DNA of 64,000 nt from Selaginella tamariscina (lineage: Eukaryota; Streptophyta; Lycopodiopsida; Selaginellales; Selaginellaceae). Location of the stretch: assembly GCA_003024785.1 (NCBI GenBank), contig PUQB01000016.1, positions 310,001 through 374,000 of the forward strand, given 5' to 3'. Below the pieces are notes generated by a model. It saw only the letters and a program-made list of their open reading frames with translations, did not search any database and was not told the DNA's origin. A program made the translations under genes and the position numbers. Shown here piece by piece: positions 500-39,730 of the stretch. Position 1 is the stretch's first letter; each line of letters starts with the position of its first letter.

Positions 500-2330
500 T
501 ATACATTAGAGTTTTACCTTTTGATATACAAAGTGTTATGGAATGAGGAAGTTCTAATTGATCAATTCCACCAAGGGCTTCGCAATGATGTTAAGGACCT
601 CCTCTTAACATTCTATAAGGACCTAGTAAATCTTTTTGAGGCTATTAGTTGTGCTGCAAGGTGTGAAATTAGTTATTTGAATTTGCTCAAAACGATTTCA
701 ATAGTTCATTTAAGAGATAGTAGTGGCTTTGCCCTCAGTAGCACTAATGGAAAACCATGACCATGCTCCAACCCCAACTCAAGGACAATCCCCATGGAGT
801 GTGAGGCCACCCAAGCTCGACACCTAGGTCCCCTAACCCCAGCTGAGAAACAACATAGCAAGGTTAACGGTTGTGTCTTTACTATGGTGGTCATGGTCAT
901 ATTGTAATCAATTGCCTAAACAAGCTGAGGCGCATGATCAACCACGTTCACCTCGCAAATCCTCAACCCATCATGATCAAGCACATTTGCCCTAAGAGTC
1001 CTGAGCCTTCGAGCCAAAGTAACAATTTTGAAGTTTTTAATAAGTTGGATGAGGAATTAAATGAGTAAGTCCAACTAAAATAAAAGCCATTTAGTTAGAC
1101 AATCCCAAACATAAAGAGCCCCTGCAAAAAATTGACTTCATCCCATTGTCTCGAGTTGGTAGGCTATTTGCAACACAAGTTAAGCTTTGCATGGCTAGGG
1201 GTTGCAAGGTCATAACATCAACAATATTAAACTATAGAGCTAATGTTTGTTTCATGAATCACACCTTTGCACGTCAATACTCTATTTCTTTTAAGAGGCT
1301 CCCAAGTTCATGAAGTTCATGGGTACATCGTCTCGCCAACCAAAGTGAGAATTGTATTGGATTGACAAGTTCTATAGTCCATATGGGTTGTTCAATGTTT
1401 CCTCAGCCTTGCTAACTTATACAGCAAGTTCATCAAGAACTATTCCAAAATTGTGCTACCACTCACTATACTCACACAAAAGAACAAATCGTTTGTGTGG
1501 ACATCAGAGGTGGAATCTATTTTTAACACCTTGAAGCATTTTCACCTTCTCTTCAATATTGGCTCATTTGGATCTTGATAGATCTTTTACCATTGAAGCT
1601 AATGCATCAGACTTCGCATTGGAAGAATCATGTCCCAAATTGCTGAAGATGGTCAATTCCACCCAATAATTATTTCCTCCTATAAGTTTCTTGCATCGAA
1701 AATTAATTATGAAGTACATAATAAAGAGTTTTGGCTATTGTAAATTTATTTAAAGAATGGAGGCACTTCCTGGAGGTCAGGTAATAGCTTACAACGACCA
1801 TAAAAATCTCATATATTTCCAGTCAACATGAGTTTTGAACCATTAATAGTTTCATTATGCCCAATTCTTAACATGGTTCAACTTTGTCATCACATATCAA
1901 CCAAGTTTGCAATAAGGTAAGCAGATGCTATATCTCGACGATCCTACTTGGCTCCTCATTCTAGTGACTTGGCATTTGACCAACAATGGCAGGTTCTTTT
2001 GGGATCAAACCAGTTAAAATTGATGGTTACTAAGGTGTTGCAAACTTTAGTGGATTCTAACATTCTTAACATGGTTTGTGCGACATTACCAACAGATTTA
2101 ATTACTCATGATGTTATGAACCATATTGCTCTTAACAAAGTCTTAGGTTCTAGTTCCAGTACAATCCTAGTGACTACAATTGATTCAAGTTCCATGACAA
2201 GTTGTTGGTCTATAAAATCTTGTTTATGTTCCAAATGGCTCCTGTTGTCTTTTGAGTATCATAGGATTGTCATAATAGTCATGACCCACAAGACATTCAA
2301 GTTAATTACTCATGATTGCTAGTGGTCAAC
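500..2330 (+). pseudogene. Heavily decayed Ty3/gypsy relic
   Basis: Pieces align in order with the better preserved gypsy B at 26446-32830. They are a gag helix segment at 521-760 (LRNDVKDLLLT, matching LRDDVKDLLLT), a zinc knuckle remnant near 880-930 (CLYYGG-HGH-NC), and a protease remnant near 1140-1290 (NVCFMNHTFARQ, matching NACFMDDTFATQ). An RNase H remnant follows at 1555-1810, then the linker to integrase at 1930-2100 (SRRSYLAP, matching SRRSYLAP) and an early integrase scrap to 2330. The polymerase palm is missing between about 1340 and 1550. Frames break repeatedly and C-to-T type changes are common, so the relic is old. No LTR was identified for it. Confidence 0.8.
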
Positions 2331-2852
2331 TTTGAAGGTATGTAGTAAACTTTTGCACTTGTGATGTTTATTATTAATCCAAGACCCCTCACCATTTATA
2401 AGGATTGCTTCAGCCATAGCCAATTTCAACTAATCCTTAAAGGTCAATTCCCATGAACTCCATCACTAATTAAGGGTTAAGTATGGTTAATTATAATCTA
2501 AGATGTGTACAAAGTTTATCACAAGTGAGAAGATTTAAAAGGTTTAGTGTGGTTTAATTGTAGTCCAAAATGACTCATTTTTTTTTATACAAGTGAGGAG
2601 ATAAACAGGGGACTAATGATTAAAAAAATAAAATAAAATTATATGATCTACTAGACCGATATATCATCACCAATCGTAAATCTAAATTCGTTGTTAAGTT
2701 TTAAAAGTGATTACTCCATATTTTAAACATTGAGTGCAAGTTATCCTCTTGGTATCGTTCACAAACCTGTTCTTTTTAACTTTGGGTAACTAGGAATTCT
2801 GTATAAGTGCCTTCGGGCTAGGGTTCAGTCTTAGGGGCTTGAGCTTGAGCAG
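2331..2852. other. Spacer before CK2-alpha; probable 5' region
   Basis: AT-rich to about 2700, then more balanced. No frame is supported. It lies directly upstream of the CK2-alpha first exon and may hold its promoter and 5' leader, but I see no definable element. Confidence 0.35.
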
Positions 2853-3391
2853 GTGGCCTACGAGAGCTTGATTCACAATCTCGGCATTCACTTTGTAAGA
2901 TCGGTGCCCATGCTAGCTGTGGCAGGTCGTTCGTCGTTTGTCTTCAAGGCTCCAGTAGCAACCCTAGCGCAAAAGATCGAAAAGTGGCCAGGCACCATGT
3001 ATAAGGCCCGGATTTACACGGATGTGAATGTTCTTCGGCCCAAGGAGTACTGGGACTACGAGTCACTCACGGTCGAATGGGGGTAAGCATCTGCATGGCT
3101 TGTGAAACTCGTCTTATAGAGTGTTATAGTGATCAGGAGGAGTACGAAGTTGTTTGTAAGGTCGTCGTGTGAAGTATAGCGAGGTGTTTGAGGGCGCATC
3201 AACTGCGTGAACAATGAGCACTGTATTATAAAAATACTGAAGCCTGTGAAAAGACAAAGGTACAGCCCCTGTGTATGTTTTTTAGTGTTTTTGTTTTTTT
3301 TTCACTTCCGTTTCGCTTGCATTTTCAGATAAAGCGTGAAATTAACAGTGGACCTAACATTGTCAAGCTCCTAGATATTGTTTGTGATCAA
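2853..3391 (+). pseudogene. Casein kinase II alpha subunit, 5' exons, truncated
   Basis: CK2-alpha is the catalytic subunit of a constitutive Ser/Thr kinase. Exon 1 (2853-3082) encodes an N-terminal extension of about 50 residues and then the very conserved start of the family ([20 protein letters not shown], ending TVEWG); a GTAAGC donor follows. Exon 2 from 3130 reads DQEEYEVV, then KYSEVFEG after a frameshift, then CIIKILKPVK after another. Exon 3 from about 3329 reads IKRE...GPNIVKLLDIV, lacking several residues expected after IKRE. The gene stops abruptly at 3391, where a gypsy LTR begins. The N-terminal extension recalls organelle-targeted plant CK2-alpha forms, but that is inference. 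Two frameshifts plus truncation make it a pseudogene. Confidence 0.85.
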
Positions 3392-4016
3392 TGTCACAAC
3401 CTGATACAGGATACAGGATTTCGGATACAAGATACAAGATACGGAATATAGGATATGCCTGCAGGATATTCTTAAAGAATATACCTACAGGATATTCCTA
3501 GGGATATGCCTAGAGGATATGCCTACAGGATATTCCTACATGATATACTACAGGATATGCCTAGAGGATAAGGGACATGTGGACTCGTTTTAGCCTTTAC
3601 ATGCATATAGCCACTTTTAGATGCATGCAACCACTTTTAGCACTCATGCCTAGATTAGCTCTTGGAGTTGTGAGCATGAAAGCTTCGACCTAATTGTTGT
3701 ACAATCAATTACTATCAACACCAATCATTCTACGATCATTCTTATTCTTGTCTTGTTCGTGTCTTGCTCCTTGCCTCCTGCTCTTGTCTTGCTCTTGGTT
3801 CTTGTCTTGCTCTTGTCTTACTCTCGATCCTGTTTTGCTCCTGGATCCTGTCCTGCTTCTGTCTTGCTCCCGGATTCTATCTTGTTCCTGTCTTGCTCCT
3901 GGATCTTGTCCTGCGCCTTGTCTTGCTCCTGAGTTCCTACTTCCTGTCCTGCTCCTGAATCAAGCCTTCTTGTTCTTGGAACCCTGCTCTTTTCCTGGTT
4001 TTTGGATTGTGGCTTG
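3392..4016 (+). repeat. 5' LTR of gypsy A
   Basis: Begins TGTCACAACCTGATACAGG like the LTRs of gypsy B. It contains a run of GGATAT/ACAGGAT short repeats (3405-3570) and a CCTG/CTTG-rich second half (3740-3960). Its last bases and the first part of gag are missing: sequence jumps from GTGGCTTG to CCCCCTTGCTGGAGCG near 4016. Gypsy B has roughly 450 bp between these points. Confidence 0.85.
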
Positions 4017-4621
4017 CCCCCTTGCTGGAGCGTGATGACCCATTGGTGGAAGACTTTGAAGGTTTCGTGGTTGCCTTTGAAGCCTGCTTTGGAGATCCTG
4101 ATAAGTACTGTTCCGCATGCACAAAGTTACGAAAGCTCACCCAAGGATCCCGACCAGCTTCTATCTATGCATCCGAATTTCAGCAACTTTGCACGAACAT
4201 TCCATGGGACAAAACTGCATTGATCGAACACTTCCATTTTGGGTTGAGGGATGACGTGAAGGACCTTCTCCTTACGTTACCAGATGCCCAAACATTAACA
4301 GAGATCATGCAATAAGTCGTTCGCTACGACAACCGTTTGTTCGAGCGTCGTCAGGAAAGATCCCGTCAGCAATTCCTACAAACCAATCCTACAGCTGCAA
4401 TACATGTTCCTGCAACACTTTCTGGAGTAGTTCCTATGGAGGTTGAGAAATCCAAGCGTGGCTCTCTTTCCGCTGCTGAGAAGCAACGTCGCCACAGTGA
4501 GAACCTATGCTTGTATTATGGTGAAGCAGGACACAAGGTAGAATGTCCTACTAAAGTCAGGAAGTTCAAGACACGTGAAGTTAAAGCTGAAGTTCAGTCA
4601 GAAAACTTCAATGTTCACTTC
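4002..4621 (+). pseudogene. gag of gypsy A (5' portion deleted)
   Basis: Encodes most of the retrotransposon gag: LLERDDPLVEDFEGF, the helical segment LRDDVKDLLLTLPDAQ, a premature stop at about 4313, then the basic tail and a damaged zinc knuckle (CLYYGEAGHKVEC; the second Cys of gypsy B's CLYCGGAGHKVADC is Tyr here). The frame runs into the target site of the giant transposon at 4621. Confidence 0.85.
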
Positions 4622-4648
4622 ATGCACGTTGTAACTAAAGTGGGCATG
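4622..4648 (+). repeat. Terminal inverted repeat, left end of left copy
   Basis: Begins ATGCACGTTGTAACTAAA and ends TGGGCATG. It matches the opposite terminus (19212-19238, reverse strand) at 25 of 27 positions by eye. CTTC (4618-4621) is the duplicated target. Confidence 0.9.
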
Positions 4649-4909
4649 ATACGTGAAAATGGGAATATAAAATAAATTACTAATTAATACTTAAGTTTTA
4701 ATTATTAATTAATCATTTAATTAATATGTAATTAAGCCTTAAATATTAATTAATTAATTAATTAATCCTTCAATAACCTTACTTAGTAAGGAATATTCCT
4801 AAAATATCTTAGAATATTCATATTATTCTAAAAATAGTTTACAATAATGAAGAAATACTATCAAACATAATTACAAATGAAATCATTTTCTTATCAACAT
4901 GTTAATTTT
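4649..4909. other. AT-rich subterminal region with GAATATTC palindromes
   Basis: Contains runs of TTAAT/ATTAA (4675-4765), a CCTTAC-TTA-GTAAGG palindrome near 4787-4801 and GGAATATTCC / AGAATATTC motifs near 4800-4825. Similar GAATATTC motifs sit near the other terminus (19090-19150). They could be transposase-binding subterminal sites. Confidence 0.5.
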
Positions 4910-6245
4910 TTATAAATACTTTCTTTCTATCATACAAAGAAATCTTTTCATTTTGTCTAAATCATCACTCTCCGGATTAATCAAATCATTTTGGTCAATA
5001 TCTTGATGTTGTTGCCACCACTTAACACTCTCACGAATGCAATTGGGAGTTGCCATCCTTGTTAATACATAAGATGTGATAAGAGAAGGTCTGCATAAAG
5101 GCTCATCTAAAAACTGACGTTCCTTAAGAATAATATTATAAAGCGCCCGGTTGCTATCCTTCATTTTATAAAATTCAATATCACGAGAAAGAAAAGCTTC
5201 AGGAAATGTATGATACGGTGGATACTGCTCACAAAAATTTTCGAGATTCTTCTTTCTGAGGCACGTATCCAAGTAGTTCACTAGCTCATCCATGATATCG
5301 GTATCAGAATATGGATCGAAAGTGATTGGATGAATACAAGCAATGTTTTGGTTGAGCATAGCCTTCTGAGGAGAGTCGTCTACTACTAAGATATGTGCAT
5401 TCTTCGTTATCCTTAAGCGACTGATCTCCCCATGAGTCCCAATTATTCTTTCATTCTTGAAGAAGTATGGCTTGCTTTCCTTTCTTATATTGTGAAATTC
5501 GAGAGGTTTATGACACATTCGCTGGTCAAAAATCCAATCTTTACGAATCACCTCTTCTGCAACACTACAATGTTTCTTAAGTAAACTCAACAGCGGTGTT
5601 AAGTTATGAATCTGCATGCATGACCAAATCCCCACAAGCGCACCCATCTCCTTAAGCTTTTGAAAGAGACGATCCAACCCTGGACGAAAAATAATATCAT
5701 ATCGAAATTTACCATGACAAGGAATGAAATCTCCTTGTTTGATTTCTGTTTTTCTATCCTCGGGCCTTTGTCGATGAAGCAGAACACCATTGACATCCAA
5801 CAACACAATATGGCCATGAGTAACATGAGATAGCGTTGCCTCTTGAATACTTTGCAAATCACTTGTTTGCTCCCTTTCACATTTATCCGTTGCCACTATT
5901 CGTTGCCTATCCCTTCATCATTTAATTGTACATCATCCTTACAAGATTCAGATATTGCATGCGCTGAAGAAATTGATTTCGGAACTGAAGCCAATAAAAA
6001 TGATGATGCAAAAACTGAAGTGGCCCCCATGGTAACGATGTTTTGAGCTGCATTATTATCCATTTCCTGCATGAACTCTGTCATTCTGACATGTGGCACA
6101 AGAAATTGTCGCCAAACCCCTCTCTTACCTCATGGCAATGCTGAAAATCCATGTTCTCAATTATTTCATTACATCTGCAAAATGATAATTAGCTGACCTT
6201 AAAATTATCAAGGTATATTATTTACCTTGTTAATGTGTGACCCAT
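4910..6245 (-). CDS. Gene A: NIF/FCP1-like HAD phosphatase, left copy
   Basis: A HAD-family protein of the NLI-interacting-factor/FCP1 type, which acts on phosphoproteins such as the RNA polymerase II C-terminal domain. The 328-residue open part (from 5896) has LLDVNGVLLHR as motif I, GIWSC after the helical region, and ILVVDDSPQKA as the late acidic motif. The expected second Asp of DxDGT is Asn (DVNG). I recall a plant subfamily with DxNGL in this place, so catalysis is doubtful. A plausible three-exon start is ATG at 6245 (exon 6226-6245), exon 6129-6174, then exon from 6066, all with GT-AG borders conserved in the right copy. Near 5896-5900 the left copy lacks two bases present in the right copy, putting the upstream exons out of frame. 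Probably a captured host gene. Confidence 0.75.
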
Positions 6246-6356
6246 GTTTGAACTAAAAGCTTCATTAATCCTTGAGAATTTATTTTCTGTACAAATATAA
6301 AAGAAATATACAAAAATGCCTTATGTTACACTCATTTACAACTATTCATCACTCTA

Positions 6357-9300
6357 TCAATTCATTATCAATTCTTCTTCGCTATTACCTTCTGAGTGAG
6401 GCGAAGAAGGTCTAAGCCGCTTGTGAGATGGTTCAAGATCTTCTGCATCTTCTATTGATGTTTCCATGGGTCCTGGAGTGTGCGAATGTTCTGTACTCCT
6501 CGAGATAACTTCCGGTCTAATATCTGATTGATGTTCGTTCTCAGACTCCGAGATTGAACCAGATTCACCTTCAGAGCTATCGCACTTATCTGGAGGGAAC
6601 TTTCTCAAATACGCCTTTATGGATCGTTGGGGTACTCAGTTGAGACCCAATCTATCCACTTGTTCAGGTCCTCAACCATGGTCTTATCCTTCTCAACGGC
6701 AAACACACATGTATGCCGAAGGTAACACTCCTTCAAGACGGACCCCCTAGTGCAGTAGTCAAAAACCCACGCATCACTGTGAGGACCCCTGATCAAGTTG
6801 ACGATGCTCCGTGCCGCTTGACTTGTAATGTTTGGATAACGTACATTGCCGAATACGTCACTCATACCTATCGGTGTATCGGATGGAGGTTCAGGGCCGT
6901 TGGAGTGCAAACAGATGCCTGGCCAGTCATTTGGAAGCTTGAAATTGTTTGGCGCATTCCTAACAACCAAGTGAACAACAGTATCAATGCACTTGGGATT
7001 AGCATCGTTCATATAAAATCCTGTCCAACGATGTCTATTCTTCTTGGCGAAGGCGAAGGCAAAAGTATCGGTGACATGAGCAAGAATCAAGAAATAAATA
7101 CCTGAAAAAGTAGGTATCAGTGAAGAGCGCAAGCATGAATTCAATAATAAATACCTTCTATGTATATGCTTGCACGGCTAAGTTTCTCCACCAGATCCTC
7201 TAGTGCCCTATCTGTCGAAAGATTTTTTGACACCCGCCGATCCATCACGAACAATTGAAACGGTTTCCTACAAGCAGTGATGTTACCCCATAAAGTCTCC
7301 GAATCTAACAACAAACATCTGTAGGGCTTGTCGTGATTCGTAGCATCCTCCTTTATAAGGTTCAATTCGGTTCTCCGCTGCTGAAGGACTGCCATAAGAG
7401 AAGGCGTCATCCCAATGTTCTCCTTTTTGGCGTTGGCGTGCAATAGATTCTTGCCTAGATCTTCCGATTGGTTCACCCATTCGACAAGCATATCATCGTT
7501 CGTCACATGCAAATATTTGCTAACCTCTTCATATGTTGAAGTCGAGGTCCAACCCAGTTTGTGGCAGTGTATTCCCAACCACTCCTTGAAATGCCTGACC
7601 GTCTTCACTCCATGCCTTGAGATGAAAAGGAGAGGTTGGGCTGCTGTTATTAATTTGTAGTTTGCCATCGATCACCAAATCAGCCAAGACTTCCATCTCC
7701 TCCATCGTTGTTCCATTTAAAGGCTTCAACCATGTGAGCTTGAAATCGTTGTCTACATCCTTTGTAGATTGAACAGACTTAGCCTTCGGCGTCTTACTGG
7801 GTTTCTTTGCAGACTTTTCTGAGGGCTCCCCTTCACTTGTCTGCTTCTTCTTCAGTGTTCCTTTTGAAAAGGATTCCATAATCCCCAACCATTTGGCAAA
7901 GATCCTATCTTCGGGGCAAGAAATCAACATCATCAGAAATGATGTTTCCTTCCCGCCCACCTGGGCAAAATCAACTGCTGCAATTTCTTCAACTCTCTGA
8001 GGAAAAAGACAGATTAATATACCGGCGAGATAAATCCCGCCCAAACAATTTGCTTACCCGGTATTCCGCAGATTGTGTATTCCCTGCGGTAGCTCTTTGT
8101 GGTCGCTGAAGAGATTCCCACACGGCTCGCGTGTGTTTAAACTTCTCCCATATTTTGCTGTTGTAGTGGTTGGTGTCGGCAGCGTCCCATTCCGCCGATA
8201 ACTTATGGTACTGCTCGATTGTGAGATTCGGCTTAGCTAAAAACGCCGATCTTTTTGTCAGCTTCTCACGGGTATGCTCGGAAAGTTTTGTTGCCATCGT
8301 TCCTTTGTTGTGTTCATCGAGAAGTCGTTGGGCTGCCGTTATTGTGTGCTGGCCACTAATGATGTAGTACTTGATAGATTTTTATTCTCCGTCTGAATCT
8401 TCATGAGTTGTTCTGGTGTTGTGATCCAGACTTTGTCAGCACCCTTCCTTCTTTCATAGTATGGACACAAAACAGCATTATGTGGAACGGTATAAGAATT
8501 GTCGTCCTTCATCTTCTCCATGAGCTCAGCTACACGTTCCTGGTTGAGTGGCCTGTAATTGAAGTTTGGGTTGACGCTGCAATATTTAACCCTACAAGGA
8601 TAAATCTTATCATCCAACATCATTTCCTTGTGACTTATTGCAGCATGAGATGCCACAGGTGCAGCTGACAAAACGATTGATGATTTTCTTTTGCGATCCG
8701 AATCAACATGTGTGATCCCCGACTGCAGCTGTTCTAGTGTTCTCGGCACACTCTTCCAGCTCCCGAAGCTTCCTAAGCAAATTGAACGTGATCTGTAGAG
8801 AACCTGAGACCGAGCCACCTTCTCAATCTCCCTTATGATGTCGCTGTGTTCTTCTTCAATGTGAAGAGGGAAGATTGCTCCACTTGCTGATTTTCTGTAT
8901 TGTGAAGCAATATCTCCTGACAATACACCTACTCGATGAGTCTGAAGATCTTCGAAGTAGACATCCAGATGGATCCCCTCCATAGATGGGCTTTCGTTGA
9001 GTTGAAGAAGAACTCCAAGGTCAACATCATTAGTGAACACGTGAACGTCATTATCCACAAGTCGACAAAACCACCCGAGATTAATGTTGTAACTGACGAC
9101 CTCTGGATCCGAGAACGTGACATTGGATGGAACAAGGCATATCTGTCGAGCATCGTCCAATCTGGGTTCGCAGCCTGCTTTCGGGTGCTTGACTAGCGAA
9201 TCTACTTTCCATTGTTTTGCTTGTCCATGAGATGTGACAGAGGTTAATTTGACAGCAACCATGGTTGCTCCAATGCGCTTCCCATTTATCTTAAAATATG

Positions 9301-9458
9301 GCCAAGTTGATTCCAGAATCCCCCTGCCCATCTCTTCTCCTGCTCTTGTCTTTAAATGTCACTCAATTCCACATCTGAATACAAAAATGATTAGTTCAAG
9401 TATCCGAGTATAACAGATTTTATTTTAATTCTTACCCAGAATTTGACGACGACTCCAT
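6357..9458 (-). pseudogene. Gene B: ParB-like plus methyltransferase-like protein, left copy
   Basis: The start is ATG at 9458 (MESSSNSG), followed by an intron and then a long N-terminal region of unknown fold (9331 to about 8600). Next comes a ParB-like domain: NYRPLNQERVAELMEKM near 8560-8510 and SGQHTITAAQ near 8360-8330. A Lys/Glu-rich helical segment follows. An intron at 7997-8057 carries one copy of the element's palindrome, and a second intron lies near 7100-7155. The C-terminal part reads RSIVNLI...VFDYCTRGS...VFAVEKD (6800-6690), which resembles the final helix, motif I (DPFxGSG) and acidic strand of N6/N4 DNA methyltransferases. I cannot find a clear DPPY-type catalytic motif. The protein ends in an acidic Ser/Glu tail. 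A stop in the early exon and frameshifts near 8378 and 7630 break this copy; the right copy reads through the latter two. Confidence 0.65.
7997..8057 (-). other. Short intron of gene B carrying one array palindrome
   Basis: A 61-bp GT-AG intron (GTAAGC...CCTCAG on the minus strand). It contains GGCGAGATAAATCCCGCC at 8024-8041, a two-mismatch version of the array palindrome. The right copy keeps both the intron and the palindrome (50957-50974). Confidence 0.75.
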
Positions 9459-9600
9459 ACTAATGACTCGATCTCCTTGTTTGATCAAATCGTCCTTCTG
9501 CAAAATAATACACTATAAATATAAATTATATAAAAACGCACACACACTTGTATAAACCCGAATATACAAAAATAATACACAGAGAGAAGTAGACGTAATT

Positions 9601-9687
9601 AACTGTCCGAAGCTCACATTTGTGTTAGTGCAAAAGAAAGATAACATTTCGTTTTAGAACCACCACAAATGTGAGCTCTGGACAGTT
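9601..9687. promoter_or_regulatory. Conserved 24-bp-arm hairpin upstream of gene B
   Basis: Arms AACTGTCC..AGCTCACATTTGTG (9601-9624) and CACAAATGTGAGCT..GGACAGTT (9664-9687) pair over 24 bp with two mismatches, around a loop of about 39 bases. It lies about 140 bp upstream of the gene B ATG. The right copy has the same hairpin at 49321-49407, including most of the loop. It could be a DNA cruciform, a transposase or regulator site, or a small-RNA precursor. Confidence 0.7.
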
Positions 9688-9793
9688 TTACATAGATTCC
9701 TAGCTTTTACTCGAAATATTATGATAAGATGATAAAAGTAAATAAAATGAGATATGCAACTTATATATACTAATACACATATATATTCACATG

Positions 9794-11375
9794 GAAATTA
9801 ATCTCGCCACCCCTTCAATGCCTCCTGAAAGAGTGGGCGGGATTAATCTCGCCACCTTTCTGGAGGCCTTGAACGGGAGTGCGGAATTAATCTTGCCACC
9901 CTTCTCGGTCTCAGAGAGAACTGGGCAGGATTTATTTCTCACACCCCTTCAGTGACTCCAGAAAGGAGGCGGGATTAATCTCGCCCACCATGTAAGTGAT
10001 GGTTAAATGAATTTCCCCACCTTCCCAATTCTCTCCATTGGTATGTTGAAAACCTTCTACGTCTCAGACAGAAACGTTTGGGATTGGTCCGACTCACCAA
10101 TGGAGAAAACAAAGGAAGGGTGGCGGGATTCATTCCTCCAACAGGCATTGAAGACTCGGCGGGATTAATCCCGCCGCCCAGGGCCTTCACTCGGTCCCTA
10201 TGCGGCGGGATTAATCCCGCCGGACGCCAATTTCCTCGCGAATCGGGCGGGATTAATCCCCGCCTAGGCACTTCAGACAGGCCAATGGCGGCGGGATTAA
10301 TCCTGCCCGATTCCGAGCAGGGAATTGGCGTCCGACGGATTAATCCTGCCCGATTCTGCGCAGGGCATGCGTACGCGGCGAGATTAATCCCGCGTCCCAG
10401 GCCCTTCACTCAGGCCTTAGTCGGCGGGATTAATCCCGCCGAACGCCAATGCCCTGTGCAAAATCTTGCGGGATTAATCCCGCCGCCTAGGCCCTTCAGG
10501 CAGGCCAATGGCGGCGGGATAAATCCCGCCCGATTCTGCGCAGGGCATGCGTATGCGGCGGGATTAATCCCGCCCACCATGTAAGGGATGGTGAAATTAA
10601 TCCCACCACCCTTCTCAGTTCCCTCCATTGGTATTTTGTAAACCTTCTCCGTCTCAGACAGAGTTAGTCGGGATTGATTCAACATACCAATGGGGTAATG
10701 AAGGTTCGGAGATTAATCTCGCCACCGGGTAATGAAGGTTCGGAGGCTAATCCCGCCGCCCTCTCGTAAATCATGCGCTCACACATATATATTGGCTGCG
10801 GCATTTTTGAACAGGGATGGGTGGGGGCGGGATTAATCCCGCCGCTTATATCCTGCGGAAGTGCCTGAGCGGCGGGATTAATCCCGCCGCCTTCCGCGAA
10901 GGGCATGAGCGTGGGGCCGGATTAATCCCGCCGTTCATGTCCTGCGTGAATTCCCTGGGCGGCGAGATTAATCCCGCCGCTCTACGACAAACCGAAGAGC
11001 GGCGGGATTAATCCCGCCGCCCATGGCCTGCGTGAGGGGCCTCGGCGGCGGGATTAATCCCGCCGCCCATCCCCTGTAAATGCCCTGCGCGGAATCCGGC
11101 GGGATTAATCCCGCCCATTAGAACCTTCACACAGGCCATTGCCGGCGAGATAAATCCCGCCGCATTCCGCGCAGGGCATGGGTGAGCGCGGGATTAATCC
11201 CGCTGCCGAGGCCCCTCACGCAGGTTATGGCGGCGGGATGAATCCCGCCGCTCTTCGGTTTGTCGTAGAGCGGCGGGATTAATCCCGCCGCCCATAGCCT
11301 GCGTGAAGGGCCTCGGCGGCGGGATTAATCCCGCCGCCGAGGCTATAAACCTATAGCGGCGGGATTAATCCCGCC
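9794..11375. repeat. Palindrome array I, left copy (about 33 units)
   Basis: A string of the 18-bp palindrome GGCGGGATTAATCCCGCC or near variants, for example exact copies at 10204-10221 and 11358-11375. Start-to-start spacing is about 42-46 bp. Spacers of 24-28 bp fall into a few families (AGGCCCTTCA..CAGGCC, GCGCAGGGCATGCGTA and their reverse complements), so larger inverted repeats are built around the palindromes. Two interruptions near 10010-10120 and 10600-10700 carry a different hairpin bounded by CCATTGGT and ACCAATGG. Long frames here (GGINPA/AGLIPP repeats) are by-products of the palindrome. Confidence 0.92.
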
Positions 11376-11393
11376 GCTCGAGGGCTTAGCGAG

Positions 11394-11416
11394 ATAAAAA
11401 CACACACATATATATA

Positions 11417-11459
<43 letters not shown>

Positions 11460-12092
11460 GTATGTATAGGAGTGTACGTGTGTGTGCAAGAGATAGATAA
11501 ATAAATAAAATTATACAGTACTGGTACACCTAATATATGTGTGTACATAGGTATATATATGTGTGTATATGTATATCGTGTGTATGCGTGTGAGCGAAAA
11601 ATAAAATCATACAGATAAACAAACACACACACACACATATATATACACAGGAGTGTGCGTGTGTGTGCGAAAGATAAAACTAATAAATAAATAAAATTAT
11701 ACAGATAAACACACACATATATATGTGTGTATATAGATATATAATCTATAGAGAAAGAGAGAGAGTCTATGAATATATAAGCATATATATAAACTAGTGT
11801 TGTATGTATGTATATATGTATATAGGTATATATATGTGTGTATATGTATATTATGTGTATGCGTGTGTGAGCGAAACAAATAAAATCATACAGATAAACA
11901 AACACACACACACACACATATACATACACAGGAGTGTGCGTGTGTGTGCGAGAGATAAAACTAATAAATAAATAAAATTATACAGATAAACACACACATA
12001 TATATATGTGTGTATATAGATATATAACCCATATGAATATATAAGCATATATATAAACTAGTGTTATATACTATTTGTTAATATGCATTGAT

Positions 12093-12148
<56 letters not shown>

Positions 12149-12220
12149 GTGTAAAGCAGTGCGCGTGTGTGTGGAGAGATAGATCAATAAAAAAAAAATT
12201 TACAGATACTGGTACACATA

Positions 12221-12285
<65 letters not shown>

Positions 12286-12502
12286 GCAGTGTGCGTGTGT
12301 GGGAGAGATAGATCAATAAAAAAAAATTTACAGATACTGGTACACATAATATATGTATGTATATATGTATATAGGTATATATATATATGTGTATATGTAT
12401 ATCGTGTGTATGCGTGTGTGTGCGAGAGATAAAACTAAAAATAAATTTATATGCACACTCTTATACATATATACATACATACACACACACACACACACAG
12501 AT
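11394..12502. repeat. TG/CA and TA microsatellite block with larger tandem unit
   Basis: Long (TG)n, (CA)n and (TA)n tracts are embedded in a larger repeated unit of a few hundred bases. The unit contains GTGTGCGAGAGATAAAACTAATAAATAAATAAAATTATACAGATAAAC-type segments (near 11480, 11660, 11950, 12425) and AGATAGATCAATAAAAAAAAATTTACAG segments (near 12178 and 12308). No coding function is supported. Confidence 0.88.
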
Positions 12503-13379
12503 CTCACCTGTGTGCACAGCCGCCGCCGCCGATTTCACAGCCGCCGCCTCTTGAAACCCTAAGAATATACCTAAACCCTAAAGGAATTAAATATATATAT
12601 TAACCCTAATAGAATATTCCTTCTGAGAATATACTTAAACCCTAAAAAGAATAAAATATAAATTCGCCCTAAACGAATATTCTTTCATTATATTATTAGC
12701 GCGTGCGTGTGCGTGGGTGTATCACATACACCTCAAAAATATAAATCATGCAGGGATTTAACATGTGTGTGTCCATGAGAGTGTTAAAGTTTCATGTGTA
12801 TCAATACATACATACACATTGCATATATTAATACACATAATATATACATACACACGTGTATACACACAGACATACACACATATTAGTACATAATATTAGA
12901 GAGACCGAGTACATATTATAGATCATGCATGTGTATATGTTTGAGAGAAGAGAGACAGTACATATTAACATGGATCATGCATGGTGTGTATGTATGAGAG
13001 AAGACAGAAAGTACACATATATACATATAGAGTACACATATATACATGCACACGTGTATACACACAGACATACATACATATTACATGAGTAAATTCATTG
13101 TGTTACATATTAGGGTTTAGGGTTTAGGGTTAGGGTTTGCTCCCAACAAGTTTAATATAAATATTACACATGTAAATTCAATGTGTTACATACAGTCACA
13201 CAGATTGAGTACATATATCATACATGCGTTGAACATGATGTTTTCAATAAAGAAGCAACCTATTTCTTCAGTTTGGTTTAGGGTTGTGCATGTGTTGCAT
13301 ATGTGTTTTTGTAAGTTCTTGTAATGCGTGTGTAAATTTATGATTGTGTTTATATATGTGTGCAAAACAAACATCGAAT
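12503..13379. other. Central spacer with CCG tract and AC/GT-rich sequence
   Basis: Starts with a GCCGCCGCC tract (12518-12548) and AAACCCTAA-type words (12550-12660), then AC/GT-rich low-complexity sequence. It is conserved in the right copy (44820-46110, inverted and longer). No gene is recognised. Confidence 0.55.
13112..13138 (+). repeat. Interstitial telomere-like repeat, left copy
   Basis: Three or four consecutive TTTAGGG units (TAGGGTTTAGGGTTTAGGG and one TTAGGG variant). This is the plant telomere repeat, inside the transposon centre and between the two palindrome arrays. Confidence 0.9.
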
Positions 13380-14280
13380 AATTAAGAAAATAATATTAAT
13401 AAACACACTAGGAACATATTTTAAATTATACATAATAATATATGATTTTATCTAATATATAGCCATATATAGTTTTAATAATATATATTAATTTAATATT
13501 GATAAAAAGGTTTAACATTGAAATATTCTTGAAATAATAAGAAATTAATTGAGAAAATCCCATTAATATATACAAATGTAAATTAAGTACTCAAATAATT
13601 AACTAAATTAATTATCATAATCATGTTTAATATTGGAATATTCTTGGAATAATAAGAAAATAATAAAGAATATCCCATTAATATAAAGAAGATTAATTAA
13701 TCAAGTAATTAAGGAAATGATATTAATATATATATTATTAAAACTATATATGACTATATATTAGATAAAATGATGTATTATTATGTATAATTTAAAATAT
13801 GTTCATAGTGTGTATTAATTTAATATTGATAATAAGGTTTAACACATGAATATTCTTGAAATAATAACAAATTAATTGAGAAAATCCCATTAATATATAC
13901 AAATGTAGAATAATTACTGCAATAATTAAGAACAAGACTAATTTAATTATGATAATCAGGTTTAATATTAGAATATTCTTCAAATATTAATAAAATATTA
14001 AAGAATATCCCATTGATACTAGGAAATGAAAACTAAATACTCGAGTAATTAAGAAAATAATAATAATAAACAGACTATGAATATATTTTAAATGATACAT
14101 AATAATATATCAATTTATTTATTGTATAAGTATATATATATATATATATATAATATAAATATACTTGAATACTAAGAATGTAGAATATAGTCTAAAATTT
14201 CGTAATATTAAACAGCTTGAATCACTTGAATAACATTAAATGCAATTTTAAAATACTCATTGAACTGGAGAGTATATATG
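13380..14280. repeat. AT-rich tandem repeat of about 325 bp
   Basis: A block beginning TTAATATTGATAA(A/T)AAGGTTTAACA... and containing GAATATTCTTGAAATAATAA..AAATTAATTGAGAAAATCCCATTAATATATAC recurs at about 13490 and 13815. A related shorter unit lies near 13620 and 13960. Each unit carries GAATATTC-type words. No gene is supported. Confidence 0.75.
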
Positions 14281-14399
14281 TCAGAGTGTCGGATATTTGT
14301 GTCAACTCATCTTAAATTTTATTTTCTGTTCTTTTTAAAAAATTTGAATTTCTGACATATGTATTATCGGTCTGACATGTAAATTTGAAAATGCATTTA

Positions 14400-15610
14400 A
14401 TTTCCCACTCAAATTCAGATCTGGTTCTTTCTCCGGCAAGGGTTTCTTCATTTCTGTATTTTTCACTCTTTAGATCTTCTTTTTTCTTCATAGTGATCAT
14501 CTCAGGGGCGAGATTAAATTGGGTGCTATTCTTTATAGGAAAGCACGGTGCCTTCAGTGCTTTTTACAAGTAAGTATTATAAACAAATTTAAAAATACTT
14601 ATAAAGATTCACTCTCTTACATTCTCTCTTAAAATTACAATTTAAGGGTTTAGGAATGCATTAGGATTATAATATATTCCGTTAGGGATTTATCCCATTT
14701 AAATATCCTTTTAACTTAATATTCTAGGTTAACCGGGCCGGCGGGATTAATCCGGCCATTTCTTTTTGGCCTCTTCGAAGAGGTGGCGGGATTAATCCCG
14801 CCACCATCTCCCGGGCAATGCTTCTCCGCCACTGAAAAAGAGTGGCGGGATTAATCCCGTCGATAACCTTCTCAACTGATGAAGAGTTACCAGAATTTAT
14901 TAGAAAGATGTCGGCGGGATTAATCCCGCCAACCATTTTAGGAGGCAGGGAAGGGGGGCGGGATTAATCTCGCCACCACTTCCCTGTTTTAAAGATTTGG
15001 GGACAGGATTTATCCCGAGATCTCTTTGAAATCATAGTTTTGGAGAGAGTTATGTGCGGGTTTAATCCCGCCACCCATTCCCCGTCGTAAGAATTGTGGG
15101 CGGGATTAATCCCGCCTTGGACTCCTCCGACAAGGAAGAGCCGGCGGGATTAATCCCGCCGCCTCTTCCTCCTCGGGGGAGTCCGACGGGATTATTCCCG
15201 CCGACTCTCTCCGGCGAGGATGAGTCGGCGGGATTAATCTCGCCGGACTCCCTTCCTCGTCGGAGAGTCGGCGGGATTAATCCCGCCGGACTCCCCCCGA
15301 GGAGGAAGAGGCGACGGGATTAATCCCGCCGGCTCTTCCTTGTCGGAGGAGTCCAAGGCGGGATTAATCCCGCCGACTCTCTCCGAAGGGTTGAGTCGGC
15401 GGCGGGATTAATCCCGCCGACCGTTCCTCGTCGGAGGGATTCGTGGGCGGATTAATCCCGCCCATCAGTTGTATTAATCAAACATGAGATATTATCTCTA
15501 AACATAATTATGTATTATTGCATATGCATATTATTAAGTAACCGTAATTCAGATTTCTTAGAAATATTGCATAAACAGATATCATAAATAATACAATTAT
15601 TTATGTGCAG
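14400..15610 (+). other. Probable 5' leader exon and first intron of gene C, left copy
   Basis: A pyrimidine-rich stretch (14400-14568) ends at AA|GTAAGTATT, a strong donor. The gene C exon begins after TTTATGTGCAG at 15600-15610, a good acceptor. Both sites are conserved in the right copy (donor near 43655, acceptor near 42856). If this intron is real, palindrome array II lies wholly within it and is transcribed. Confidence 0.5.
14740..15463. repeat. Palindrome array II, left copy (16 units)
   Basis: Sixteen copies or near copies of GGCGGGATTAATCCCGCC, with start points near 14740, 14783, 14842, 14911, 14956, 14998 (weak), 15056, 15098, 15142, 15183, 15226, 15269, 15312, 15357, 15401 and 15446. 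The later units repeat every 41-45 bp. Spacers (GACTCC..GAC(A)AGGAAGAGCC, CTCTCCG..GAG types) differ from those of array I although the palindrome is the same. The right copy has about five or six fewer units. Confidence 0.92.
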
Positions 15611-15616
15611 GACAAT

Positions 15617-18600
15617 ATGTTTAATACTGGAGATAAAGTATGTCTTCTTCGGAATAACGAGATAGTTGGCACTGGAACTGTGGAAGTTCGAGATAATAAT
15701 GCATCATGTCACAATATTGCCCAAGGATCTGTGTGTACGTATGGGTGAACACCATTTACAGTATGTTGAGGTTCTGGGAATGGAATTTGAGGAGGGTTCT
15801 CCTGTATTGTGGAATTTGGATGAAGTCAAGGCTGACACAGAATATGCAGAGTCACAAACAAATAGTAGCACGAGTTTACCAGATGATGGCTTGCCTGCTG
15901 TAATGGATGAGGTGATTCTCTTTCTTCGTGAGATTGAAGTCGGAAGAGGCATCATCACAGCTATAAATCCAATGGAAGCAGTGTCAGAAGAGAAACTAGG
16001 GTCCGACTTCGTGGGTGTAGTTGTGACAGAGGTTTCACCTAATGGCACATTGTATCCTGGATCCCTCGTGAGGTGGCGAACATCTGAATTAAGACGGCAA
16101 GATGGTTCAACATATTCTGGGTTGGATTTCAATAATAACAACCCGGAAGAACAACTCATATTTGAAGAGGTTCCTTGCATTGGTCCTATTGTAAGAAAAA
16201 GGCGATTCATGGGTTGTAGATCTTCCCCTGCAAGTTTCAGCAAGAGGGTAAAGATGGATCCTACATCTTCCGAAAGTGTTACGAGCATTTCCACGATTGA
16301 CTGTTGCAAGAAGAAGTGTTGTCAGATGGCAGACCGGAATGAAATTACCCAATGTAGACATGTCTTTCGTATGCTCACCCAAAAGCAAAGGCATGAGTTT
16401 GTATATGCTGCACTAACTGGGTGTATTGATGGAATGGCCTCGGACACAGGTTATCAGAGTACATCCATGGTATTTAATAAGGTGGCCATCTGCTTCAAAG
16501 CTTGGTACAGTATATACGGGATCCCAAAGACCACGTTCTACCGTCGGAGGGATGAGTGGCTAGATGGAGCGCGAACCTCAGTTCATGGGAACACTGGCTT
16601 GGTCAAAACCCGCTCTCACATCATGGCAGCCATAGAGATACTCAAGGCTTTTGTGGAAGCAAATGCAGACAGGATGCCTCACAAATGCCGAACCACAAAT
16701 GCAGGGGTCAGGGAAAATCTCAAGGTTTTACCTTCAATCTACACTCAATTGAAACTGTGTGAACATGTGAACAAGTGCCTCAGTTTGATGGGGCTCCAAG
16801 CAATCTGCACTGGTACCTTCAACAACATATGGAATACTCATTTTAAGGATGTGGAGATTGCAAAACACTCTAGCTTTTCTAAGTGTGACACTTGTACATC
16901 ATTGAAGGCTGCAGAGGCTTGTGCAAAAACCTTGGTGGAGATCACTACCATTCAAAGGAAGATGGAGGCCCACATGATTGCACAACAAACTTGCGGTCTC
17001 AGTACTATGCACACCGCATGCTTTCTGTGTCACGCCCATCAGAGTACCTGTGCTTGATCCATGACAAGATGGATCATTCAAAGACCAGCATTCCAAAGCT
17101 CTTTGCAACACCAAAGTGCCTTGGAAATGTCATGAAACTTCCGATTTCATTGACAGGTGTGCTAACACATGGACACGGTTGTGAGTCATATGGACACTTT
17201 TCACTTCCACATTGGTCTAGCGACTCCAATTTCACTATTGGGTCGTTAGCCATGTGTTTCAGAAACCTTGAAGCCCACTCACAGACAAGTCCTATCAGTG
17301 ATCTCAAAGTGAAGAAACAACACCTTCAACCTTTACATAATGCTCTCATGAACACGTCTGCACTTGAGGCTACTTGGGAATATGAGAGGCATTGTCAGCA
17401 ACCTGCACAAAAAACAGATGGCCCTGTTGAGAGTTCAGGTTCAGTGGAGGGATCTAGCTCAAATAGTGTACATGTGTCCTCAACATCAAATAAGCTTCCT
17501 CGTCATTTGCTTTTACAGATGGATAATTGTGCAGCGAGAACAAAAATAGGTAAATCATTTTACTTAAGGGTTTCTCAAGCTCATACTTACTTTTATTTTC
17601 TAGATATGTGCTAGCATACTTGTCAATGCTTGTTGCCAAAGGTGTGTTTGAAACAATCACGCTCAGTTTCCTTATGGTTGGTCACACTCATGAAGATATT
17701 GATGCGTTCTTCAGCAAGGTCTCCAACTCTACAAAAAGGACAAGTGCACTTACCTTACCGCATATGATGAATCTTTTTGAAAATTGCATCTCCAAAAAAA
17801 GTTGTGCTTTGCTTGTGACTGAGGTGCCAGACTTCAAAAAATTTCTCAAGGAGTATATAAAAGAAGGGAGTGATTCTTTAGTTGGTCACCTTGTGCCGCT
17901 ACAATTCTTTTTCTCCATACGAGATGGTATACCTATTATGCAGTACAAGTTACGGCCATCAGAGCAGGAGTGGTTACCGAAAGAGGGCTTAATGCTCTTC
18001 AAAAGTGGAGAGGATGGAAAGCCACTTCTCCCAGAAGGACAACCAGACCCTATTCCATTGAGTGCCCAGCTCAAGGAACAAGAGGTTATTATTGATGGCA
18101 TCAAAAAATATGTGGCATGGGTTCAAAAATCGATGCCAAAGAATTCTGATAAGGCAACTGGTTACTCAGAACTATATAAGCATGTGGTCAACTATTGGGA
18201 GACTGTTGTTCGAGAGTTGGAAGGGCCTACTGTCACAAGTACAGAATTGCAACACCCTTTTGGCCTAAAACAAGGTGGCGAGAGGAGATTGAAATGACAT
18301 CACTGAGCACAGACGACATAGAAGCCAGTAGTGATGTGGAAGTGCAAACCCCACATTTTGTTGGACAAAGGAACCAAAAACCTAAAGCATACTTTGATTG
18401 CTGCAAGGATCTTCAAAAACTAATGATGGTTCTCATTACTCCAGATGCGTCATATAATCAGCCTATTTGGATGGGTCAAATTATCGACACACCTGAAGTA
18501 ATCACAAAAAATAGTATTGTTAAGGTTGCATGGTTCAAACCACAAAAAAGGCGACACGAGAAGGAGAGCGAAAGATATAATGGATGCCTAGAGAAAACAT

Positions 18601-18731
18601 GGTCTCCCAATCAAAAAGACCCAGCATGTTTTATAAATGTTAAATCCATTCGATATGGGTGGATGTCAAGAAGCGTTGATAAAGTCACGATTAACAAAAC
18701 TGCAAGGGAATGTATGTTTTCTGAAGCTTAA
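15617..18731 (+). pseudogene. Gene C: DUF7869-like probable transposase, left copy
   Basis: The likely transposase. The N-terminus (MFNTGDKVCLLRNNEIVGTG) resembles the small beta domain of plant transposase-associated DUF8039 proteins. A Cys-rich motif CCKKKCCQ (about 16305-16325) and a helical region with a second Cys pair (CDTCTSLK, 16885-16910) follow. The core has three acidic motifs in RNase-H order: LIHDKMDHSK (17053-17082), LLLQMDN (17505-17527) and VGHTHEDIDAFF (17677-17712). The last two with the YLSMLVAKGVFETI stretch match the pattern I know from DUF7869 proteins. A GT-AG intron splits the second and third motifs (17550 to about 17604). The C-terminus has a WFKP..RRH..YNG region. 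Frameshifts near 15722, 17005 and 18263 and a stop at 17612 inactivate it. Confidence 0.75.
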
Positions 18732-19211
18732 AGCAATTACAAAATTATAAAATATCATATATTTAATATTCATAATTATTATAAACTCTTTAATAATAGT
18801 ACCAAATTGTATACTTAACTATATAAATTTAAAAAATGATATGGAAGATTGACTATATTATTATAGGATTTTATATATATATTATTACTACTACAAATTT
18901 TTAATTAATAATGTTATATTTAAATATTAATATTTTAATAACAACATCAATATTTATATAATGTACCTCTTATGCTCTTCCTTAATTGTTATATTAGGCA
19001 ATATATTATATAATTTAATACATTCTACTTTTATAATGTTATTAATTTTTGTTCAATGAATGCTATAATTTATTAAAGGGTAGAATACAAAATAGAATAT
19101 TCTAAAGAATATTCTCTTTTCAAACATATATTCTAAAGAATATTCCTTTAATATTAGAAAATGCTAATTAAATAGCTAAAATTGCTAATTATTAGGAAAT
19201 GGGACTATAGC
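18732..19211. other. AT-rich subterminal region of left copy
   Basis: Very AT-rich, with no gene. AGAATATTCT / AGAATATTCC palindromes recur at about 19092-19150, echoing those near the other terminus. Confidence 0.6.
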
Positions 19212-19238
19212 CATGCCCATTTTAGTTACAACTTGCAT
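19212..19238 (-). repeat. Terminal inverted repeat, right end of left copy
   Basis: On the minus strand it begins ATGCAAGTTGTAACTAAA and ends TGGGCATG. CTTC (19239-19242) follows, duplicating 4618-4621. Confidence 0.9.
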
Positions 19239-22200
19239 CTTCGTCTAGGAGCCGCGAAGTTGGACGTAGGTGTAGGCTTCATTGGTGCTGCTCATACCAT
19301 TCAATCACTCAAGTTTCCTGTACACATTCATCTCAATAATCGAGAGCTTAAGGAGTTTGCCCTGTTAAACACTGGTGCAAATGCATGCTTCATGGATGAC
19401 ACTTTTGCAACTCAACATAGCATTCCGGTGGTGGAGTTGAAGCGTGCAATTCCTGTAGAGGTGGCCAATGATCGTCTGATTGCTTCTGGCGCAGTTACCC
19501 ATGCTATCAAACCTCTCTCTTGCAGTCATGGAGCATTCAACTGTTCAATTTCCTTCAATTTGATAAAGACGCGGTCGACTCCCATCATTTTGGGCATGCC
19601 ATGGTTCGTTGTTGTAAATCCGCAGATCGACTGGAGGTCTAGGACGTTCACGTTTCCTCTCCGGCAGCCAGGATCATCCTGTACCTTCCTGCGTGCAGGA
19701 TACATCCTTAGTATCTGAGGTAGTACAAGCTACAGGATTGACCGTGCCTATTCCTATATCAGTGTTGAAGACTCCTCCTCGACAGGATTCACCTCATGTC
19801 AGTTCTTCAGCACATCCGTAGGCTCTCTCCACTCCTGTAAGATTGCGGATTCCTGTACAGGGTTCTTCCAATTCTGTATCAGTGTCGAAGGTTCCTCCTC
19901 AACAGGATCCACCTCCTGTTGGTTCGTTAGCACACTCGCAGGCTTTCCTCACTCCTGTGCAACCATGGATTTATGTACAAGATTCTTCTAATCTTGTACA
20001 CTCGTCAACATCCACACAGGTTTTTCCCAATCCTGCCTCTTTTTGTTACTCTGCTTCTGTTTCACCCCCAAGATCCTTCCTCTTTTTCAGTCACAGCTCC
20101 CTCCTTCTCCTCTCCGAGTTCTTACCACTACTGAACTTGCCACTAATCCTGCTCCTTTCCATCTTTTTGCCTTTCAAGTAACTCCTACATCCTCTTCTAC
20201 CTTTCCTGTATCTGACTCTCCTATTTTTCAATTTCCTTTTCCTCCTTCTTCCCTACCATCCAAGTATCACTCCTTTCAAGATGTTTTTAACAAGCACAAG
20301 GCTGCAATTCTTCATGTTCACAGGTCCTACGACTGTTCTATTGATCTTGCAGAAGGAAAGACTCCACCGTTCGGACTGATCTATGCACTGTCACCCACAA
20401 GTTGGAGGTTCTTCATCAGTACATCGAGGACAACTTGGCATCTAGCTTCATTCATCACTCAAAGTCCTCTACAAGAGCACCTATCTTCTTTATCAAGAAG
20501 AAGGATGGGAGTTTACGTTTAGTTGTGGACTACAAGGGTTTGAATCAAGTCACCATTCGAAACCGATACCCGTTGCCATTGATCCGGAACTTCTCGATCA
20601 GCTGTGAGGAGCAAAGGTGTTCATGAAGATCGACTTACGAGGGGCCTACAATCTTGTACGGATTCGTCCAGGCGATGAGTGGAAGACTGCCTTTTCGTAC
20701 AAGGTATGGACATTTCGAGTACACGGTGATGCCTTTCAAACTTACCAATTCCCCAGCTATGTTCCACACATGGTGAACGACATCTTTTGCGACTTCTTGG
20801 ACTAGTTTTGTGGTGATCTACCTCGATGACATTTTGATTTCTCCAAGGACCAGGCGGCACATGACAAGCATGTACGATTTGTGTTCTACAGCGGCTTCGC
20901 GAGCATGGCTTGTATGCAAAGTTGGAAAAGTGTTTTTTCGACAAGGATTCTGTGGAGTTCTTGGGCTACATCGTCTCTCCTGCTGGCATTTCCATGGACA
21001 TGCACAAGGTGAAGACCATCGCGGAGTGGGAGAGGCCCAAGTCTGTATGAGACGTACAATGTTTCCTTGGCTGTACAAACTTCTATAGGCGGTTCATCAG
21101 GACTTCTCCACGTGTGTACTTCCACTCACGGAACTCACCAAGTGCACAGGGGTTTTCTCTTGGTCCGACAAGGCGGAACATGCATTCACAACACTCAAGG
21201 ACGCCTTCACGACAGCTCCGATCTTAGTACATCTTGATCCTTCCCGTCCCTTTTCGTTGAAGCAGATGCTTCGGATTTTGCGGTAGGTTCTATCCTATCA
21301 CAAATTGGAGAAGACAAGTTACTCCATCCTGTAGCCTTTCACTTTTGTAAGTTCCTTTCGGCGGAGATCAATTATGAGATTCATGACAAGAAACTCAAGG
21401 CCATTGTGGATTCGTTCGAGGAGTGGCAGCACTTTCTGGAAGGTGCTGCGCATCCTGTACAAGTCCTTACGGATCGCAAGAACTTGAAGTTTTTCAAACG
21501 GCTCGAGTTCTCAGTCGGTGACAAGCTAGGTGGGCGGAATTCCTATCACGTTTTGATTTTGTCATCATCTACAGGCCCGGTTTCCGGAATGGTAAGGTAG
21601 ACGCATTGTCTAGGCGCTCTTACCTTGCACCGACCCCAGGCGATCCTGCATATAATTGTCAAAGGCAAGTGTTGTTGGGTCCTGATCGTTTTCGGCTTGC
21701 GGCACTACAGGTTCATCAGGCTCCAGCAAATTCAACACTTCTACAAGACATCAGTTCATAGTTGGCTACAGACGACTTGATAAGGAATGTGTTTTCACAC
21801 ATTAGTCCTGACACCGCAAGTTCCTCTTCCTCCAGTTCCCTTACAGACTACAAGTTGTTTGCCATACAGAACAAACTCCTGTACCAGGAAGGTCTCCTGT
21901 ACGTTCCTGTTGGTGTTTGCAGGACTCGTGTGGTACAGGATTGTCATGATACCCCGGCTACAGGACATTTTGGTGTGGCCAAGATAGTTCAGTTCGTGAC
22001 TCGCAACTATTGGTGGCCTGGGTTGCGAAGTTTTGTGGACAAGTTTGTACGGAGTTGTGACACCTGCAATAGGTCGAAGATGCCTCGTCATGTGCCCTCT
22101 GGTCTTCTTCGTCCTCTTCCTGTTCCTTCTGCTCCTTGGAGATCCATTTCTATGGATTTCCTAATAGATCTTCCTCCTTTTCGTGGATTTGATGCAGTTC

Positions 22201-39066: not shown

Positions 39067-39222
39067 TTTAATGGACAGTGTCGACCCGTGTGGACTGAAA
39101 GCTTTTGGAAAAGCTTGACACTCTGGGTCTACTTGATAGACAACCCTGCCACAAACAGGCTTGTTCTTTTCGCCGGCTGCTGTGTCACAGTTGCGTCTGC
39201 TATTGTTATACTCACAACTCAA
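39067..39222 (+). pseudogene. Penultimate part of a membrane-protein last exon, cut by transposon
   Basis: The open frame ends RPVWTESFWKSLTLWVYLID, then a hydrophobic segment LVLFAGCCVTVASAIVILTT that looks like a single transmembrane helix. It runs straight into the target site (TCAA, 39219-39222) of the right giant transposon. The frame resumes without loss at 54366 with a basic tail and a stop. The gene upstream is not recognised. A frame change near 39080 may separate it from SGGWKLLPVEAGDL. Confidence 0.6.
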
Positions 39223-39249
39223 ATGTAAGTTGTAACTAAAATAGGCATG
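39223..39249 (+). repeat. Terminal inverted repeat, left end of right copy
   Basis: ATGTAAGTTGTAACTAAA then ATAGGCATG. It is the counterpart of the 19238 end of the left copy, with a few substitutions. Confidence 0.88.
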
Positions 39250-39730
39250 GCTATAGTCCCATTTTTTAATAATTAGCAATTTAGCTATTTAATTAGCATT
39301 TTCTAATATTAAAGGAATATTCTTTAGAATATATTTAAAAACAAAATATTCTTTAGAATATTTTATTTTGTAATCGACCCTTTAATAAATTATAGCATTC
39401 ATTGAACAAAAACTAATAATATTATAAAAGTAAAGGTATTAAATTATATAATATATTATATTTAAGATTGTATGGGCCTAATATAACAATTAAGGAAGAG
39501 CATAAAAGGTACATTATATAAATATTTATGTTGTTATTAAAATATTAATATTTAAATATAACATTATTAATTAAAAATTTGTAGTAGTAATAATATATAT
39601 ATAATATACAAAACCTATAATAATATAGTCAATCTTCCATATTGTTTTATAAATTTATATAGTTAAGTAAACAATTTGGTACTATTACTAAAGAGTTTAT
39701 AATAATTATGAATATTAAATATATGATATT
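39250..39730. other. AT-rich subterminal region of right copy
   Basis: Counterpart of 18732-19211. No gene. GGAATATTCTTTAGAATAT motifs lie at 39314-39360. Confidence 0.6.

Follow-up and report, generated by a model that had tools for sequence, protein, structure and literature searches.

A giant transposon of Selaginella tamariscina with Sola-like traits, a probable DUF7869 transposase and internal palindrome arrays

Sola elements are described in a review of plant transposons as having a DDD transposase, 4-bp target site duplications and terminal inverted repeats (TIRs) of 11-1124 bp; most of them measure 2-9 kb and some exceed 15 kb, and they are present in Physcomitrella and rare in flowering plants (PMC10741241). 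For Sola2, AT-rich duplications of the form AWWT were given for Dictyostelium elements (PMC3627910). In the brown alga Ectocarpus, the 21.5-kb Sola1 element Sola1-1_Ec32 carries a gene for a ParB-like plus DNA methyltransferase protein of 1104 aa opposite its transposase, and it has been proposed that such ParB-methyltransferase proteins, accessory to giant algal transposons, bind the element that carries them and modify it (PMC12477816). Here we describe a giant TIR transposon in a 64,000-bp stretch of Selaginella tamariscina DNA (contig PUQB01000016.1, positions 310,001 to 374,000, assembly GCA_003024785.1; hereafter the window, in whose numbering all coordinates are given). It carries three genes, A, B and C, and two arrays of palindromes. 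We consider it likely that this is a giant Sola-like cut-and-paste transposon in two copies, in which gene C would encode the transposase and gene B an accessory protein, and the palindromes would be the element's own binding sites. The element, its ends and its insertion sites are as follows.

4622-19238: TIR transposon, copy 1, 14617 bp
4622-4648, plus strand: left TIR of copy 1, from the TIR pattern search
19212-19238, minus strand: right TIR of copy 1, from the same search
4618-4621: left target site duplication of copy 1, CTTC, set by the single CTTC in the empty site
19239-19242: right target site duplication of copy 1, CTTC
28130-28189, plus strand: empty site in a related gypsy copy, with one CTTC
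39223-54361, minus strand: second full-length copy (copy 2), inverted relative to copy 1, 15139 bp
39219-39222: target site duplication of copy 2, one side, TCAA on the plus strand and TTGA on the element's strand
54362-54365: target site duplication of copy 2, other side

The first-pass annotation had proposed a giant transposon with 27-bp inverted ends and a 4-bp duplication that resolves to a known empty site, and all of this was borne out. The two TIRs of copy 1 are identical at 25 of their 27 bases, and the TIR pattern, allowing up to 3 mismatches, has 4 matches in the window, two of them at the ends of copy 2, vs 0 in 100 shuffles; the element ends carry the terminal bases ATGCA. When the flanks of copy 1 are fused with a single CTTC, 998 of the 1000 joined bases align to 27659-28661 (91%, 3 gap openings), and at the insertion junction 57 of 60 bases match the empty site, where CTTC occurs once. 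Copy 2 shares both terminal bases with copy 1 and has TTGA on either flank; no empty site for it was found within the window. The earlier interpretation also required the three genes to travel together. This was checked once: copy 2 carries genes A, B and C as well as both palindrome arrays, so the genes do travel together. In the compared parts of the copies (4800-9700 and 15450-18800 in copy 1), 35 of 40 length differences are of one base, which suggests long-read assembly errors; the frameshifts in both copies may therefore be partly technical. A search of viral contigs with the TIR pattern gave no match.

In copy 1, genes A and B lie on the minus strand and gene C on the plus strand:

4910-6090, minus strand: gene A, NIF/FCP-type HAD phosphatase-like protein, from Pfam NIF, with the start codon placed by eye from the frame of copy 2
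6359-9458, minus strand: gene B, multi-exon, about 900 codons, from open frames, with exon limits set by eye
15617-18731, plus strand: gene C, DUF7869 transposase (probable), from Pfam, with one short putative intron at about 17550-17603

Gene C matches Pfam DUF7869 on two pieces (E 4.4e-27 and 1.4e-10) and has 108 detected relatives, moss and liverwort among them. A model of one relative (P0003) together with an alignment (A2) places the conserved acids D515, D676 and D718 in RNase-H/DDE order, and three acidic motifs are also readable in gene C of copy 1. In the P0003 model the three-acid core is flanked by a Tudor-like N-terminal and a BAH-like C-terminal domain. Given the order of the acids and the modeled flanking domains, gene C is very probably the element's transposase, as had been proposed at first pass from its DUF7869-like character. 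Between the copies gene C differs by 21 synonymous and 27 non-synonymous changes, with a ratio of non-synonymous to synonymous rates (dN/dS) of 0.27-0.45. A search of a viral fold library returned nothing at E <= 0.001, and no DUF7869 relatives were confirmed in viral contigs, searched with one DUF7869 piece (29 stretches) and with the alignment (173 stretches). The authors of the algal study state that, to their knowledge, no transposable element with a Tudor domain had been reported before their Tudor-bearing Gypsy (PMC12477816), and among the matches listed in a literature search there was no Tudor or BAH-like domain on a DNA transposase; such domains on a DNA transposase may thus be new, if the models hold.

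Gene B seems to have been retained by the element, as far as the two copies tell. They differ in it by 68 synonymous and 52 non-synonymous changes over five segments, with segment dN/dS of 0.29, 0.04, 0.11, 0.12 and 0.22; the segments are delimited only approximately, and the one at 0.04 includes some intron. Gene B is under purifying selection between the copies, a signal that random sequencing errors would tend to dampen, and the element therefore seems to keep it. Synonymous divergence (dS) is 0.09-0.15 in gene B (6690-9358) vs 0.02-0.045 in genes A and C, a mosaic that suggests past recombination between element lineages. The class of the protein is a separate matter. The first-pass annotation read it as ParB/methyltransferase-like, and by eye two features can be made out, a ParB-like box, YYIISGQHTITAAQRL, and, toward the C-terminal end, a methyltransferase-like motif. 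In hhalign the box falls in register with ParB at a score no better than that of shuffled sequence, in a comparison of little reach (a single gene B query and a ParB profile of 4 sequences). A protein search over 2905 candidates gave none at E <= 1; PDB gave none at E <= 10, and another PDB search two chance-level rows, neither ParB. The joined pieces had no Pfam match up to E 10, and single frames gave sub-cut-off rows only. No match was found by tblastn against phages or in NCBIfam, and the single PHROGs row was weak (E 0.071) and its function is unknown; a methyltransferase domain had no significant match in Pfam, NCBIfam, PHROG or PDB. A single-sequence fold was unusable (mean pLDDT 40). 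The earlier reading thus found no statistical support, and it is plausible from the published element of the same layout, as far as that is described in the excerpted source (PMC12477816); by this analogy gene B most plausibly belongs to the ParB-plus-methyltransferase class of giant algal transposons.

Gene A has the NIF domain (E 2.5e-12, 47.2 bits vs a cut-off of 21.8, on 4910-5914), which agrees with the phosphatase gene called at first pass. Its phosphatase motif, read by eye, is DVN instead of DxD, and phosphatase activity is therefore left as putative. Its 4 synonymous and 8 non-synonymous changes between the copies (dN/dS 0.48) are too few to settle selection and say little. A second gene for a NIF-type HAD phosphatase, which shares its domain family with gene A and likely belongs to the host, lies at 62504-63174.

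The palindromes lie in two arrays per copy:

9836-11375: array 1 of copy 1, 29 sites, upstream of gene B
14740-15462: array 2 of copy 1, 16 sites, upstream of gene C
47368-49207: array 1 of copy 2, 34 sites
43004-43487: array 2 of copy 2, 9 sites
8024-8041: palindrome site in a gene B intron (intron placed by eye), 2 mismatches to the consensus
11400-12510: CA/TA-rich microsatellite between array 1 and the central region

With up to 5 mismatches the window holds 90 sites of GGCGGGATTAATCCCGCC, 33 of them exact. All are within the two copies, including one per copy in the gene B intron, and none was found elsewhere in the window. The sites are regularly spaced, 55 of the 84 gaps under 400 bp being 42-47 bp. 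The window has 46 perfect palindromes with arms of at least 8 bases (mean 1.6 in 5 simulated sequences), and 44 fall in the two copies. A count of near-palindromes of 20 bases, made without reference to the motif, gave 25 for array 1, where 1.25 are expected, and 13 for array 2, where 0.5 are expected. Conservation is highest in the central ATTAAT, whose columns are each intact in 83-90 of the 90 sites. G to A or C to T changes make up 62 of the 118 mismatches, and compensation is seen in only 5 of the 107 changed pairs. Such a pattern resembles decaying sites that are recognized as double strands more than it does selection on an RNA stem. In gene B as in gene C, the first coding exon, with its ATG, follows a 3' splice-like site; both arrays thus probably sit in introns of the 5' untranslated regions (UTRs). 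The first-pass picture of genes diverging from a palindrome-filled center was right as to the strands and the presence of two arrays; the palindromes occupy the inner flanks of B and C, and the very center is microsatellite and AT-rich. Telomere-like TTTAGGG/TTAGGG repeats occur at 13111-13138 in this central region. In viral contigs the palindrome pattern gave one lone site in one contig (L003), taken as chance.

One scan of genome contigs with a DUF7869 alignment (A1) found two related loci among 133 stretches, L001 (1-4327) and L002 (1-5162), both eukaryote-looking transposon contigs binned in Synechococcales and Bacteroidetes metagenome-assembled genomes. L001 has a complete DUF7869 open reading frame at 547-3438, whose ATG follows a splice-like CAG (by eye), and 10 sites of a different palindrome, TTTAGCTCGA-n-TCGAGCTAAA (<=6 mismatches), both upstream and downstream of the frame and none inside it; in 50 shuffles this motif, which was derived from L001 itself, gave a mean of 0.14 and at most 2. 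With a shorter 15-base core, 1 of 12 sites is inside the frame. In L002, two different palindromes stand 44-45 bp apart downstream of the gene, in one 89-bp tandem repeat (4972-5149) near the contig end; on that account the case is weak, and L002 was dropped as a third example of conserved arrays. Repeated palindromes near a DUF7869 gene are thus seen fairly clearly in L001 and weakly in L002.

With respect to classification, the element is best filed as Sola-like, a placement that we infer by analogy of traits, not of transposase sequence. It shares with Sola elements generally the 4-bp duplications (CTTC and TTGA at the two copies), the three acids in RNase-H order of a DDE/D transposase, variable TIRs (here 27 bp) and a size (14617 and 15139 bp) in a range where some exceed 15 kb, and it differs from them, as far as the available text of those sources goes, in its three genes and palindrome arrays (PMC10741241, PMC3627910). 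Sola1-1_Ec32, compared by description only and not by sequence, is likewise a giant element whose accessory gene and transposase are on opposite strands; it is 21.5 kb long and comes from a brown alga, and palindrome arrays, a NIF gene and Tudor or BAH-like domains do not figure in the part of its description available (PMC12477816). Other superfamilies have their own definitions. CACTA, KDZ and hAT elements have 2-3 bp or 8-bp duplications and termini of their own, which the 4-bp duplications and ATGCA ends do not fit. En/Spm, a CACTA element, also combines a transposase with an accessory DNA-binding protein and repeated short sites within the element; its duplications are 3 bp, its ends CACTA and its sites subterminal, in contrast to the 4 bp, the other ends and the internal palindromes here. 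Bacterial ParB-parS offers another likeness, a ParB-like motif (by eye) beside palindrome clusters; here there is no significant ParB match, and a partition function is not suggested.

Several results weigh against the joint reading. The duplications CTTC and TTGA do not follow the AWWT of Sola2; a search with gene B over 7830 candidate proteins returned none at E <= 0.001, which offers the ParB/methyltransferase class no sequence support; near-palindromes of 20 bases outside the element number 20 vs 12.6 expected (largest 17); and those of L001 are not above chance (3 vs 1.5 expected at 21 bases, 0 vs 1.6 at 20 bases), exceeding it only in being one repeated motif. The departure from AWWT would also suit a new superfamily, with DUF7869 elements as a DDE/D group of their own, as would the lack of any sequence relative of the DUF7869 profile among solved structures and of any mention of DUF7869 in the literature searched. 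The motif GHTHEDID is not mentioned there either. The undescribed superfamily raised at first pass was nevertheless not kept, since the 4-bp duplication, three-acid transposase, size (Sola elements over 15 kb being known), moss occurrence and published sister layout with a ParB-methyltransferase companion all fit Sola, insofar as the accessible parts of the sources describe it (PMC10741241, PMC12477816); we consider it unlikely. Genes A and B could instead be host passengers, captured once by an ancestor of both copies and useless to the element. NIF proteins are ordinary host proteins, a further NIF gene lies in the window, and only two copies were seen. The purifying selection on gene B speaks against capture without use, the gene A counts bear little on it, and this explanation seems to us quite unlikely, more so than a new superfamily.

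As for the palindromes, they might be host transcription factor sites, captured as promoter or enhancer elements and unrelated to gene B. Each array stands directly upstream of the exon in which the coding sequence of B or C begins, and we take GGCGGGA to resemble an E2F site and GGATTA a homeodomain site. A shared factor predicts a shared motif, however, and the palindrome that L001 has in a comparable position is quite unlike this one, for which reason the E2F idea was dropped; nor does any site occur in the window outside the element, and a host-factor origin is improbable. We likewise give little credence to RNA hairpins in 5' UTR introns, acting in splicing or as small RNAs, or to non-functional foldback repeats left by tandem or inverted duplication. 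Long inverted repeats within the arrays (e.g., 84-nt arms at 98%) and the 3' splice-like site before the first coding ATG of both genes would be expected on this account; the scarcity of compensated pairs would not, and the best kept part is ATTAAT, which would have the loop at its middle.

If the Sola-like reading is correct, the RNase-H core of gene C would cut at the 27-bp TIRs and insert at 4-bp staggered targets, and its Tudor-like and BAH-like domains would probably read host chromatin. Gene B would be an accessory protein maintained by the element. The arrays upstream of B and C would most likely be binding sites for a dimeric element-encoded protein, with B as first choice and C as second, and such binding would let the element recognize and regulate its own copies. 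More tentatively, and as a possibility we would hold only a little above the rivals just weighed, this may be a self-recognition system: the accessory protein would bind, and perhaps mark, the roughly 45 palindromes of each copy, which lie in leader introns at intervals of about four helical turns, and site and protein would co-evolve, each family reading only its own copies.

Elsewhere the window contains TTTAGGG runs and, at its end, a PPR-like repeat below the cut-off (E 0.0006, 20.3 bits, cut-off 25). Together with the moss and liverwort relatives of gene C these indicate a land plant, and introns of about 50-70 bases would agree with a lycophyte. Pointing the other way, a DUF3669 zinc-finger-type match lies at 61253-61828, slightly over its threshold (23.4 vs a cut-off of 22 bits), in an otherwise plant-looking window; DUF3669 is a fungal family.

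These results would extend giant Sola-like elements to an apparent land plant. No mention of palindrome arrays like these was found in the literature searched, where no search was aimed exactly at them and most subscription papers lay outside coverage; what looks new is the candidate target, with GGCGGGATTAATCCCGCC confined to the two copies in the window. The published ParB-methyltransferase proposal, in the part of the paper available, names no target (PMC12477816), and the arrays would provide a concrete candidate, testable in vitro. For DUF7869, a large family of unknown function, the models suggest a chromatin-reading transposase.
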